A stretch of DNA of 64,000 bases from Solidesulfovibrio sp. (lineage in GTDB: Bacteria; Desulfobacterota; Desulfovibrionia; Desulfovibrionales; Desulfovibrionaceae), in assembly GCF_038562415.1 (NCBI RefSeq), contig NZ_JBCFBA010000012.1, forward strand, positions 62,001-126,000, read 5' to 3'. The translations under genes and the position numbers were made by a program. This document shows positions 6,208 to 9,726 of this stretch, piece after piece. Position 1 is the stretch's first letter; each line of letters starts with the position of its first letter. The notes beneath the pieces are model-generated. The model saw only the letters and a program-made list of their open reading frames with translations, did no database searches and was not told the origin of the DNA.

Positions 6208-7494
6208 CTATTTATGCGTTTTCTTCCACATTGATTTCAACCACGCATCCTTCGGCCCACCGGGATGGCCGCGCATGGCCTCGGCGAACTTCTCCGGCGA
6301 GAGCCCATCCCGCCATGCCTCGAATTGCGCTTGCTCGGCCGCTTGCTTTGCGGCGGTGACCGCCTTTGCTTCGGCCTCGGCATCCTTGGCGGCCTGCTCC
6401 TCGGAGCTGACGTAGCCTTTCGGGCGGCGGTAGTAGCCGGTTCGGGCCAAGGAACGAAATACCCAGGAACACGGGTCGGCCACGGGCTGACCGTCCTTGT
6501 CGGTCATCTGCCCCTGTTCAAGTTCCCATTCGGCATGATCGAGGCTTTGCATGATCTTGTCGGCTGGCTTGCCCAGCTCGGTCAGCGCCTGGCTGATCTG
6601 CGCGAGCTGATCCGGGCCGAAGCCAGACCGGAACAGGTTGGGCCAAGTCAACGCGATCCGTTCGGAGGAAAGAGAGAGAGATAGATTTTCTATCTTTCTA
6701 TCTACATTATGAATGGTCGGATCATGGGTCGGTGCTTTTTTCGGATCAATGGTTGGGTCATGAGTCGGATCTTTTTTTATTGTTGGGTCAACTGTCGGAT
6801 CATGGGTCGGATCACATTGCTTGAACGCTTGACATCGGGATCGGACAAGAAACAATCGGACCCCCTGACAGATACCATGCCGATATGTTTCCTTACGGAA
6901 AAATCCGAGGTCAGCGAACTCGGCGAAGTATCTTTTTACTGAAATTTCAGTAAATTTAAGGGCATTGGCTACAGCTTGCCGACTGATAATATAATCATCG
7001 CCGGCGGGTTCGTTGTCGATGATGAAATGCAGGAATCGACGCTTATTCACAGGCAAGCTGCGGATCAATTTCCGTATTGTCGGATCACTAGTCGGGTCAT
7101 GGGTCGGATCAGCCTTGACTGTCGGCTCATGGGTTGGCTCAAGCGTTGGGTCAGGGGTCGAGGCATCTGTCAGGACACCTGTCGGGACACCTGTCGGGAC
7201 ACCTGTCGGGACACCTGTCGGGACACCTGTCGGGACACCTGTCGGATCATGAAGCGACTGCCTTGTCGGATCAAGAGTCGGTTCTTTTGTCGGTTCATGG
7301 GTTGGATCAATAGTCGGTTCATATGTCAGGTCAATAGTTGGGTCATATGCTGGATCAAGAGTCGGCTCATGCTTTTTTTTGGGGAAAACACTGATCTTGT
7401 CCGCCATGCGCGCGGCCTCGGCCAGGCCAAGTCGGCCGTCCGCTGATTTTTTCAGCGTGTCGAAAATGGATCGCCTGGGCTTTGGCTCGGGCAT
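6208..7494 (-). CDS. Plasmid-type HTH protein with Asp-Pro-Thr tetrapeptide repeats
   Basis: A 428-residue protein, second gene after parA (23 nt gap). Residues 43-140 and 228-261 are low-complexity arrays of a four-residue unit, mostly (D/E)PTx, including five perfect GVPT units. Between them, residues 145-210 form a plausible winged helix-turn-helix (ISRQAVANALKFTEISVKRYF), the kind of DNA-binding module found in plasmid replication and partition proteins. The C-terminal 150 residues are charged and helical. Each tetrapeptide is encoded by a 12-bp DNA unit that also occurs outside the gene, upstream of parA, so the repeats may serve at DNA level as binding sites. Best guess is a replication initiator or a centromere-binding partner of ParA; no family could be named with certainty. 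Confidence 0.75.
   Translation of the reverse strand: MPEPKPRRSIFDTLKKSADGRLGLAEAARMADKISVFPKKKHEPTLDPAYDPTIDLTYEPTIDPTHEPTKEPTLDPTRQSLHDPTGVPTGVPTGVPTGVPTGVPTGVLTDASTPDPTLEPTHEPTVKADPTHDPTSDPTIRKLIRSLPVNKRRFLHFIIDNEPAGDDYIISRQAVANALKFTEISVKRYFAEFADLGFFRKETYRHGICQGVRLFLVRSRCQAFKQCDPTHDPTVDPTIKKDPTHDPTIDPKKAPTHDPTIHNVDRKIENLSLSLSSERIALTWPNLFRSGFGPDQLAQISQALTELGKPADKIMQSLDHAEWELEQGQMTDKDGQPVADPCSWVFRSLARTGYYRRPKGYVSSEEQAAKDAEAEAKAVTAAKQAAEQAQFEAWRDGLSPEKFAEAMRGHPGGPKDAWLKSMWKKTHK
6712..6813. repeat. 12-bp repeat array B (within HTH gene)
   Basis: Degenerate tandem units of about 12 bp on the plus strand (for example GTCGGATCATGG, GTTGGGTCATGA). They encode DPT-type tetrapeptides at residues 228-261 on the minus strand. 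Period and core (GTCGGATCA) match array A and the non-coding units at 8439-8474. Confidence 0.85.
7075..7368. repeat. 12-bp repeat array A (within HTH gene)
   Basis: About 24 tandem units of 12 bp, encoding residues 43-140. Positions 7181-7240 hold five perfect copies of GTCGGGACACCT, with a one-mismatch copy at 7169-7180. The flanking units are of the GTCGGATCAnnn type. The perfect block suggests recent tandem duplication. Confidence 0.92.
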
Positions 7495-7517
7495 AGGATC
7501 CCCCGATGTCTTGTTGC

Positions 7518-8303
7518 CTATTCAGGGCTTCCGAGAATTTGCTTTAATTCGGTTGCAAGCTCGCGATACGCCTTTGCGCCGTATGTTGTCGCATGATTTC
7601 CGAACACGGTTGATTTCGTATATTCAGCCTGTTCAAAAACCGTGCTTCGTGGAATATGCGTCTCAAACATTTTCCCCTTAAAATTATCTTCAAGCTCGGA
7701 AACGATAACTCTTCCCATGGCTGTTCTACGGTCAATGTTGTTAACGAGAAGTCGTAAAAACCGAAGATCCTGGTTGCCGTCCTCTTGAATTTTTTCGATA
7801 ATTGCTAAAACTCGCAAAAGGCCTTCTATGCTGTATGCAGAACCAGCCGAAATAGGAACGATACAAAAATCAGCGGCAAACAGAGATGAGAGGGAAAAAT
7901 AACCAAGGTTTGGAGGTGTATCTATCAAAATATACTGATAGGTTTCTTTGGCATAGTCTCGAATTTTTGATCGCAGGATGGAATAATTTTCAGGAAGGTT
8001 TTGCGATAAATCATATTCTAAAACTGCTGTGTCTGAAATGTTCGGCAATAAATCAATTTTTTTTATTGAGGATTCAATGATTGCCTTTTTTACAATCAAA
8101 TCACGAGAAGTGAGGATATCATATAAAGAGTTTTGGAACGAAATATTTCCGCCGGTCAAAAGACTTGTTGAATTGCATTGCGAATCTGTGTCGATGACCA
8201 GGGCGCGCCCCCCCTTTAAAGTCAGGGCGTGAGCCAGGTTACACGTGAGTGTCGTTTTTCCGACGCCGCCCTTGTTGTTGGCTATCGTGATGATAATTCC
8301 CAC
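7518..8303 (-). CDS. parA: ParA family partition ATPase
   Basis: A 261-residue deviant-Walker ATPase. The N-terminus carries KGGVGKTT (Walker A with the signature lysine) at about residues 11-18, then VIDTDSQCNSTSLL and ILIDTPPNLGY (Walker B region), all typical of ParA/Soj/IncC. Members of this family bind non-specific DNA as ATP dimers and move plasmid or chromosomal cargo together with a ParB-like centromere binder. No N-terminal DNA-binding domain is present, so it is the short (type Ib or chromosomal-like) form. The start is GTG at 8303 with AGGTG upstream. No canonical ParB is encoded next to it; the repeat protein 23 nt downstream is the candidate partner. The gene is AT-richer than the glycan genes, consistent with transfer. 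Confidence 0.93.
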   Translation of the reverse strand: MGIIITIANNKGGVGKTTLTCNLAHALTLKGGRALVIDTDSQCNSTSLLTGGNISFQNSLYDILTSRDLIVKKAIIESSIKKIDLLPNISDTAVLEYDLSQNLPENYSILRSKIRDYAKETYQYILIDTPPNLGYFSLSSLFAADFCIVPISAGSAYSIEGLLRVLAIIEKIQEDGNQDLRFLRLLVNNIDRRTAMGRVIVSELEDNFKGKMFETHIPRSTVFEQAEYTKSTVFGNHATTYGAKAYRELATELKQILGSPE

Positions 8304-8606
8304 GGGAGCACCTGCTTTTATGTGGATTGAGGCTTGCTTTTTCCTAAAAAAATCTCCTTATGTCAATGTGTTTGATTTGAACTTGCAAAAAACTGATGGT
8401 TTTTTGTGTGACTCTTCCTGGTAAAATCAAGTGTCCTGGTTGGATCATCCGTCGGATCATGTGTCGGATCATTTTGCTCGCGCGGAAAAGTCTTTCTGCT
8501 TTGTAATAGTATGATTTGTTTAATGATTTTTCCGGTTGTTTGAAGTGTCGCGGAAAATGGGACCGCCGGCTAAGCGAGAGCCCTCACGCGAGGAGGACGG
8601 TTTTTG
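8304..8606. other. Upstream region of parA with repeat units and IS edge
   Basis: This stretch holds the likely parA promoter area (AT-rich, 8304-8420), three 12-bp repeat units at 8439-8474, and from about 8545 sequence that looks like the left end and leader of an IS3-type element preceding the OrfA start at 8607. No open frame is credible here. Confidence 0.6.
8439..8474. repeat. Three non-coding copies of the 12-bp unit upstream of parA
   Basis: Three head-to-tail 12-bp units: GTTGGATCATCC, GTCGGATCATGT, GTCGGATCATTT. They match the units inside the HTH gene in period, orientation and core, but lie 136-171 bp upstream of parA, outside any recognised gene. Plausible partition site or iteron cluster; alternatively a leftover piece of a duplicated repeat gene. 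Confidence 0.8.
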
Positions 8607-8768
8607 ATGGACAAGCGACGGAAACGCACCGCACAGTTCAAGGCCAAAGTGGCGCTCGAGGCCCTGTTCGGCGAGTTGACCTTGCCCGAGCTGGCCAGCA
8701 CGTATGGTGTGCATCCGACGCAAATCGCCCCGGCGATTTCTGCGTCGCTGCCTTGGAAGAGGCCATGA
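8607..8768 (+). pseudogene. Truncated IS3-family transposase OrfA
   Basis: ATG at 8607, with GGAGG about ten bases upstream, opens a 53-codon frame. Its first 40 residues are a standard IS3/IS911 OrfA N-terminus (KRRKRTAQFKAKVALEAL, then LPELASTYGVHPTQI, the helix-turn-helix). After HPTQI the sequence departs from the family and stops. OrfB is absent, so this is a deletion remnant. It ends 25 bp from the FkbM gene, marking the junction between the parA island and the glycan genes. Confidence 0.85.
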
Positions 8769-8793: not shown

Positions 8794-9726
8794 TTACACG
8801 GCGACCAGGGCTTTGATCAAATCCGCGTGCCGTTCGTGGTGCAGGAAGAAGAAGTTTGTTTCCAGCGTTCCCTCGTCCATGAACGCGAAACGCCGCAGCT
8901 GTTGCCCGGCCAAGGCAAAGCAGCCGTAACCAAGCTCCTTGAAGAGGGCGATTATTTCGTTGGGATGGTAATCGAACTTGCTGGCCCACTTGCGCAACAT
9001 TTCCGAAAAGACGATGGGCTTGTGTTCGGCCAGGGTCTTGAGACCTCCGCGATAGACAAAGAATTCTGCTCCTTCCACGTCGCACTTAAGAAAATCCACG
9101 CTGAAGGGTTTGTCGGCCATGAACTCATCCAGGGGCATGACGCGGCAGTCGATGCGTTCAATGTCCGCCCGGTCGGCCACGTTGCGGCTGGAGGCGTTCA
9201 TGGAGCATTCGGGCGCGAAGTAGAATGTCAGTGTCTCGTTGACGTCGGAAAAGCCGAATGGGTACGTCTTTACCTGCTCGTCCAGGCCGTTTAGGGCGAC
9301 GTGTTGCGCCAGGCGGGCGAAGGTTTTGGGGATGGGCTCGAAGCTGTGGATGGTCAAGGACGGTTTTTTTCGGGCCAGCCACAAGGCGTACCAGCCTACG
9401 TTGGCCCCGATGTCCAGAAGGCAGGCACCGTCCGGCACCAGCCGTTCCACCATGGTCAGCTCCTCGCGCTCATGTCCGCCAAAGTTAATGATTTCCAGTA
9501 GGATATCGCGCTTGTCCTGGGCCGTTGGCAGCATCTTGATGTCCATGCCGCGAATGGTCATGCAGATTTCCCCATCTTTGATTTCAATGCGGGAAATGTC
9601 CGTCTGAGGCAGTCGTTGCGCATACTGGAAAAGTGTGCTGTGAAAGGCGTACATCTCATCGATGAATCGAGCCTTTGGCAGGCTACCCGTGGCATATGCA
9701 TCCAGAATTTCTTTCATGGTGTTCAT
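8794..9726 (-). CDS. FkbM family methyltransferase
   Basis: A 310-residue SAM-dependent methyltransferase of the FkbM type, which usually O-methylates sugars or polyketide hydroxyls. Motif I is LLDIGANVGWYA at residues 103-114. The acidic post-motif (IHSFEPIPKTF) and the FkbM signature VDFLKCDVEGAEF follow. It is translationally coupled to the SDR gene (ATGA overlap at 9723-9726) and is the last gene of the dehydrase/ThDP/SDR run, so it probably methylates the sugar made there. Confidence 0.9.
   Translation of the reverse strand: MNTMKEILDAYATGSLPKARFIDEMYAFHSTLFQYAQRLPQTDISRIEIKDGEICMTIRGMDIKMLPTAQDKRDILLEIINFGGHEREELTMVERLVPDGACLLDIGANVGWYALWLARKKPSLTIHSFEPIPKTFARLAQHVALNGLDEQVKTYPFGFSDVNETLTFYFAPECSMNASSRNVADRADIERIDCRVMPLDEFMADKPFSVDFLKCDVEGAEFFVYRGGLKTLAEHKPIVFSEMLRKWASKFDYHPNEIIALFKELGYGCFALAGQQLRRFAFMDEGTLETNFFFLHHERHADLIKALVAV

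Follow-up and report, generated by a model that had tools for sequence, protein, structure and literature searches.

In this study we analysed a window of 64,000 nucleotides of Solidesulfovibrio sp. DNA, part of contig C12 (NZ_JBCFBA010000012.1), in which a parA gene (7518-8303, minus strand) is followed downstream by a gene for a 428-residue protein (6208-7494, minus strand) in which a 12-bp unit, TGAYCCGACNNN, forms two arrays. Our results, all of them computational, support the conclusion that the DNA of this unit is the selected object and that the tetrapeptides it spells are by-products. The gene is probably a plasmid replication initiator that holds its iterons, the origin, inside its own coding sequence, where they flank the winged helix of the protein.

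The repeat unit in the window and in the genome

The units lie mostly at 12-bp spacing in array 1 (7075-7371, minus strand; TGAYCCGACNNN and variants, encoding DPTx, EPTx or VPTG) and array 2 (6712-6813, minus strand), and between them sits a predicted winged helix (residues 148-223; 6826-7053, minus strand), the presumed binder of the unit. In the protein they appear as 26 xPT tetrapeptides, 19 at residues 43-140 (7075-7368) and seven at residues 228-261, the latter mostly in a predicted-disordered stretch between winged helix and C-terminal domain. Both arrays, three extra copies at 8439-8474 (minus strand) and the gene itself were found where an earlier, sequence-only reading of this DNA had located them, and the helix-turn-helix (HTH) that it placed between the arrays corresponds to the predicted winged helix. 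Two of its descriptions hold in part: Asp-Pro-Thr accounts for 8 of the 19 N-terminal tetrapeptides but the other 11 are EPT (6) or VPT (5), and the copies share orientation and the basic 12-bp spacing but not a single 12-bp register, as 8439, 7079 and 6716 differ modulo 12.

Genome-wide, the unit is confined to this locus. The window has 18 matches to GTYGGRTCA where 1.83 would be expected, and none of 100 shuffles gave more than 5; the gene holds 13 of these matches, three are at 8439, 8451 and 8463, and two lie elsewhere (2025 and 12872), which puts 16 of 18 at the locus. The tandem pattern TGAYCCRACNNNTGAYCCRAC has six matches in the 5.07-Mb genome, all six at the locus, and its reversed control has none. 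Units of the form TGATCCGACACA occur both at 8439-8474 and inside the gene. The unit contains TGA, and the located in-gene sites all lie in the frame that hides it, which may explain the 12-bp spacing together with the simple tetrapeptide.

Selection on DNA versus peptide

The window gene has 22 copies of its top 9-mer, whereas 20 synonymous-codon shuffles, which keep both the peptide and the codon usage, gave 12.3 on average and never more than 15. When top 9-mers were compared in this way, with 20 shuffles per gene, one 9-mer exceeded all of the gene's own shuffles in 37 of 52 distinct family genes. The set of 52 omits the identical L046 and L047, the C-domain fragments L083 and L088, in which no excess was seen, and L027-L029, L090 and L091; near-identical genes are counted apart (L023, L024, L042 and L043; L021 and L068; L033 and L049), and the partial genes L011, L019 and L041 are within the set. 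Borderline rows are noisy, L036 giving 9 copies against a shuffle maximum of 9 in one run and of 8 in another.

The way homologs read the unit points in the same direction. In L087 one 12-mer with 25 copies (21 exact) is spread over the three frames as 8/9/8 and read as STRP, LPDR and VYPT, and nine members with 13-bp spacing (L050, L058, L031, L032, L033, L034, L010, L011 and L020) read their unit in all three frames. Units stand on both strands in L038 (+12/-8) and L039 (+13/-15), the HTH domains of which are 81-82% identical to that of the window. Among 18 members studied in detail, with motif seeds picked from the data, each gene holds 13 to 62 units, which lie before the HTH in 18 of 18 and also in the linker behind it in 17, whereas the HTH (0-2) and the C domain (0-3) hold few.

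Alternatively, the repeats might be selected as a disordered linker, the similarity of the DNA coming from tandem duplication. Pfam does label the array region as PT disordered repeat (E 1.4e-12), the linker is predicted to be disordered, and array 1 contains a 98% tandem, likely recent, at 7167-7245, encoding GVPT. However, three-frame and two-strand use and the synonymous excess led us to reject a peptide-only explanation; same-HTH homologs derive other peptides from the same DNA unit on the opposite strand, the unit is coupled to the HTH among close pairs, and the copies upstream of parA have a different spacing, so that this explanation is scarcely credible.

The synonymous excess, the three-frame reading, the use of both strands and a unit that follows the winged helix (see below) thus support DNA as the selected object. 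The sequence-only reading had supposed as much, and the homolog check that it proposed, for conservation at the DNA level including synonymous sites, bears it out, homologs showing the reverse of the free synonymous variation that it had named as a refutation; its view of the unit as a protein-binding site is probably right, and between origin and centromere, which it left undecided, we favour the origin.

Two apparently exchangeable blocks

Among close pairs the unit is coupled to the winged helix. In all eight pairs with an HTH identity of at least 78%, the correlation between units was 0.76-0.90, and in 14 listed pairs with C domains 74-90% identical and HTH domains at most 44% identical it was 0.28-0.55; in L045 and L058, for example, the C domains are 90% and the HTH domains 23% identical, with a unit correlation of 0.28. 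ParA behaves like the unit, its identity being 85-95% in the eight same-HTH pairs and 40-45% in the 14 listed pairs with different HTH and similar C domain (2 of 78 ParA pairs gave no usable alignment). The C domain varies independently of ParA, as shown by five pairs among L001, L045, L050 and L058 with C domains 82-90% and ParA 40-44% identical. Genome G515 carries five family genes on five contigs, with C domains 74-97% and HTH domains 26-50% identical, a distinct top 9-mer in each, and ParA 46-55% identical in the four compared, the C domain thus being kept within one host with differing HTH and ParA.

Since ParA and unit follow the HTH in close pairs, unlike the C domain, two apparent blocks emerge, one of parA, HTH and array and one of the C domain alone, and the identity patterns fit an exchange of the latter against the former.

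The family and its plasmids

The family is defined by its conserved C-terminal domain (helical, residues 273-417; 6244-6678, minus strand), for which no Pfam family was found. Relatives were matched in 29 of 149 genomes, with some rows weak, broken or repeat-only, and in 9 of 395 genomes of a phylum-wide search, the genome of the window being included in both counts. Relatives were located on 11 plasmid records, which include pDMC1 and pDMC2 of S. magneticus, a plasmid of S. carbinolicus, and pDRET01. No relative was found in phage records (searched with the C domain only, E<=0.01) or in viral contigs, Pfam gave nothing but the generic PT repeat for the window protein at E<=1 (no RepA_N, PF06970, and no RepC), NCBIfam had no credible match, and a literature search of open-licence papers did not find the family described.

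On the complete plasmids pDMC2 and pDRET01 every cluster of at least three units lies in the gene and a single further pair stands outside it on either plasmid, and on the 5.3-kb contig of L050 (unit AAGCGGACA) all such clusters are in the gene, with no pair elsewhere. Also on pDMC2 (L051:3057-5169), two genes have DnaB-like helicase C-terminal domains and might supply the helicase for replication of the plasmid. The 1115-residue 'hypothetical protein' after ParA on pDVUL01 of N. vulgaris DP4 (L054:180-3527) is a family member, with an excess 9-mer of 20 copies against a shuffle maximum of 17.

A second parA and family gene, type B, with QSxSQP-like arrays and a GTG start, stands on the same plasmid in L038, L039, pDMC1 (L052/L055) and G008:C2, and in L038 and L039 the type-B cassette is adjacent, giving one plasmid two maintenance cassettes. 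Among type-B genes three of seven exceeded their shuffles (L036, L037 and L038_2) and four did not (L039_2, L015, L017 and L040). L058 lies on a contig binned as Spirochaetia (JARKOY010000167.1) with a C domain 83% identical to that of the window, a case of either transfer or mis-binning. The identical genes L031, L046 and L047 occur on 18-21 kb contigs of three genomes in the genus (G010:C3, G012:C59 and G007:C37), which is what the recent spread of a plasmid would produce. Several family plasmids (NC_012797.1, NZ_CP045505.1 and NZ_CP045507.1) carry genes related to sugars or surface polysaccharides (epimerases, rfbF/rfbG, glycosyltransferases).

Replication initiator or partition protein

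In the mechanism we infer for an initiator, TGAYCCGACNNN would be the 12-bp target of the winged helix, the two arrays (7075-7371 and 6712-6813) would form the origin, and the DPT, EPT and VPT repeats would be disordered linkers tolerating whatever the repeats spell; the conserved C-terminal domain would contact a host replication factor, and ParA would be made from the same operon as the initiator. AlphaFold2 predicted a winged helix, a disordered linker (predicted local distance difference test, pLDDT, below 50 at residues 232-272) and a helical C domain. Across 13 members at E<=0.1, PHROG matches were mostly to replication initiators and weak (best E 2.3e-5): phrog_678, 'replication initiation O-like', leads with six members (best 1.5e-4), followed by phrog_270 (4), phrog_391 (3), phrog_8102 (3), phrog_345 (2) and the DnaD-like helicase loader phrog_186 (2). 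The window member itself matches phrog_270 alone (E 0.0094). In Pfam the same 13 members matched generic winged-helix families (MarR_2 in five, HTH_36 in two, and others), and RepA_N was not among the 25 of 33 Pfam families listed for them.

The main rival, which we consider unlikely, holds that the protein is a ParB analogue, a ParA adaptor, that the arrays are the partition site, and that something else runs replication. Of the 18 members studied in detail, 13 were found to have a ParA gene beside the family gene, and L058 has one too; ParA identity follows HTH and unit; and the 12 ParB_N matches in seven genomes include none on a contig with a family gene (none on C12), the only AAA_31 match on C12 being the window ParA. 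Many short tandem repeats also make up known centromere arrays such as tubC and parC, and Foldseek matched the winged helix to TubR as well as to many regulators and 4pt7 ('Structure of initiator'), none at a significant E-value. In addition, the protein begins with a basic peptide (KPRRSIFDTLKK..., residues 1-41; 7372-7494, minus strand) that might contact ParA, and a K/R-rich pattern, written post hoc, was found in 26 of 43 family N-termini (shuffle mean 9.3, maximum 17), 11 of 54 entries having been left out by choice (duplicates, partial genes, uncertain starts and the L023 group). On the other hand, pDRET01 has separate ParA-ParG genes of its own, the PHROG matches are mostly initiators, and the C domain does not follow ParA. 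A centromere role would also leave the 8.9-kb pDMC2 without a recognised initiator, as Pfam recognised no other in 10 scanned of its 12 annotated proteins.

We think it doubtful, although less so than a centromere alone, that one protein serves both replication and partition, a model overlapping with that of the initiator: the arrays would be origin and centromere, one winged helix would read both, the basic N-terminal peptide would activate ParA, the C-terminal domain would recruit the host replisome, and parA, N-terminus, HTH and array would be swapped as a unit. If true, a single recombination event could change the specificity of a plasmid for both replication and partition and leave its host-adapted C domain in place.

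Several results weigh against the gene being a replication initiator with an internal origin. No 9-mer excess was found in 15 of the 52 genes. Over all 153 pairs the rank correlation of unit similarity was 0.25 with the HTH and 0.32 with the C domain, so that the coupling argument rests on the contrast of close-HTH with close-C pairs, similarity between distant pairs being noise, and a ParA varying with the HTH would also suit a partition module. Given the lack of ParB_N on these contigs, the family protein may be the sole ParA partner. The C-domain model has no convincing fold among PDB or viral models: its alignment to the DnaD domain 2i5u (Z 3.0, root-mean-square deviation 3.3, 63 residues) is not above unrelated rows, and the C-domain sequence profile gave one chance-level PDB match (E 0.072). 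On Desulfolutivibrio p1 (NZ_CP045507) another initiator and another ParA are annotated, and pDMC1, with an A-rich unit, has four extra unit clusters outside the gene, at 12.9-16.7 kb. The GC-skew minimum falls inside the gene in pDMC2 and pDRET01 and 0.15-0.72 half-length off in the other four of six plasmids (Fisher p 0.063, with one gene tested per plasmid and two family genes each on pDMC1 and G010:C2); with the gene masked p is 0.087, and both in-gene minima move out. DnaA boxes (TTATTCACA; one at 7043-7051 of the window) number six in the family against 2.4 in shuffles, with 8 of 200 shuffles as high, and have no common place.

Copies upstream of parA

The three units at 8439-8474 lie 136-171 bp before the GTG of parA, and the window list holds no open reading frame (ORF) of at least 60 residues that overlaps them. 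The open frame that would spell them as DPT has no ATG, GTG or TTG before the repeats in 257 translated bases, and a second frame on the same strand has an ATG within the repeats and is 42 residues long, with no sign of a gene; these copies appear to be non-coding, as the sequence-only reading had stated. It had also raised the possibility that they are the tail of a duplicated coding repeat. This is disfavoured by L039. Its two divergent parA genes enclose seven upstream units when two scans are combined, with spacings of 11, 11 and 12 bp followed by 11 and 33, and three TGA-containing units 11 bp apart place a stop in every frame of that strand.

Upstream copies are clear in three of four same-HTH members: L001 has a group of three plus an isolated weak match at 471, L044 three or four depending on the scan, L039 has those described above, and L038 has none near parA. 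We surveyed all 18 members, seven of which could not be judged, and rejected upstream copies as a general feature. Among the nine with at least 400 bp upstream, three have clusters (L001, L044 and L039), two single sites (L034 and L050) and four none (L038, L045, L031 and L032); shorter stretches in L048 (108 bp) and L020 (174 bp) hold no units. The copies upstream of parA are accessory, and in the window their probable role is feedback control of the operon by the protein, or else that of a minor partition site.

It might be argued from the three members with upstream clusters that the units only autorepress the parA operon and that the in-gene copies are decoys or titration sites. However, four of the nine members with enough upstream sequence have no unit and two a single one, as against 13 to 62 in the genes, and L038 keeps the promoter-like element but has no units there, so that we find such a role very unlikely. 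That element, a -35-like TTGACA upstream of parA (8361-8366, minus strand), is kept in the four same-HTH members (TTGACT in L038), and a promoter scan of 8290-8600 recognised no sigma-70 site. A terminator-like hairpin at 8482-8499 (plus strand; 0.5 expected in shuffles) lies just beyond the three units, and a remnant of a transposase start (HTH_Tnp_1, E 0.0044, under the Pfam cut-off) at 8607-8741 (plus strand) borders the region upstream of parA.

Replicon and neighbouring genes

The two ends of C12 have 121 bases in common, for which the rest of the assembly gave just one 29-base partial match. C12 looks like a circular contig of 133,295 bp, as the end overlap would predict, and this overlap, together with relatives on closed plasmids, suggests that it is a plasmid; it carries one tRNA-Arg. 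parA, the first gene of the presumed operon, encodes a 261-residue AAA_31/ParA ATPase in which AAA_31 starts at residue 4, a short ParA without N-terminal HTH as is typical of type Ib. The neighbours of the 428-residue gene in the window are parA and a gene for a FAD-dependent oxidoreductase, and a gene for an FkbM-type methyltransferase (8794-9726) adjoins the cassette.

Implications and comparison with known systems

The 37 of 52 genes with an excess form a large natural series in which coding and a dense array of DNA sites share one stretch and the DNA wins, the same unit being free to occupy whichever frame or strand remains open. Every such gene spells out the sequence that its own winged helix presumably recognises, and the family thus offers a ready training set for a winged-helix DNA recognition code. 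Our literature search of open-licence papers found no initiators, origins or incompatibility groups for Desulfovibrio-type plasmids; the present family suggests candidates for all three, and a possible tool for plasmid vectors in Desulfovibrio-type hosts.

Origins inside initiator genes are not without precedent, known cases being pAD1, pSX267, pAMbeta1, pLS32, pSK1, pSK41 and repABC (PMC3155836). In pSK41 the origin boxes encode a linker in the initiator gene and are bound by the N-terminal winged helix, while conservation of the C domain holds within a host group; in pPR9 the N-terminal domain and origin were exchanged as a block (PMC5703833). The anatomy of the present gene resembles this RepA_N type in its repeated sites encoding a linker. 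It differs in that arrays flank the HTH on both sides, the units far outnumber the four boxes of pSK41, parA adjoins the gene, the C domain is another by sequence and no RepA_N match was found. Lambdoid O has iterons in the middle of the initiator gene, four in lambda and six in Stx phages (PMC7466680). Mid-gene repeats and weak O-like PHROG matches in several members recall this arrangement, but phage records gave no match to the C domain (E<=0.01), and a helicase-loader gene like P, which stands next to lambda O, is not among the neighbours of the window gene. Lambda O is not known to have a ParA neighbour.

In repABC, ParA and initiator likewise share an operon and the origin lies inside the initiator gene; oriV is within repC, and p42d repC is described as lacking iterons (PMC3155836). 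Unlike the present system, repABC has a ParB, whereas we found no RepC match here and no ParB_N on C12. Type Ia ParABS differs in its ParB_N/ParBc adaptor, none of the 12 ParB_N matches in seven genomes lying on a family-gene contig. SCP2 ParT is a ParA partner with a DNA site inside its own coding sequence (PMC12260392), but it is presented there as a partition protein with one 18-bp inverted repeat, in contrast to the arrays found here. The best reading by analogy likens the system to pSK41 or lambda O in its working; what is new is the family itself, the placement of arrays before and behind the HTH, the high density of units, their free use of frame and strand, and the link to ParA.

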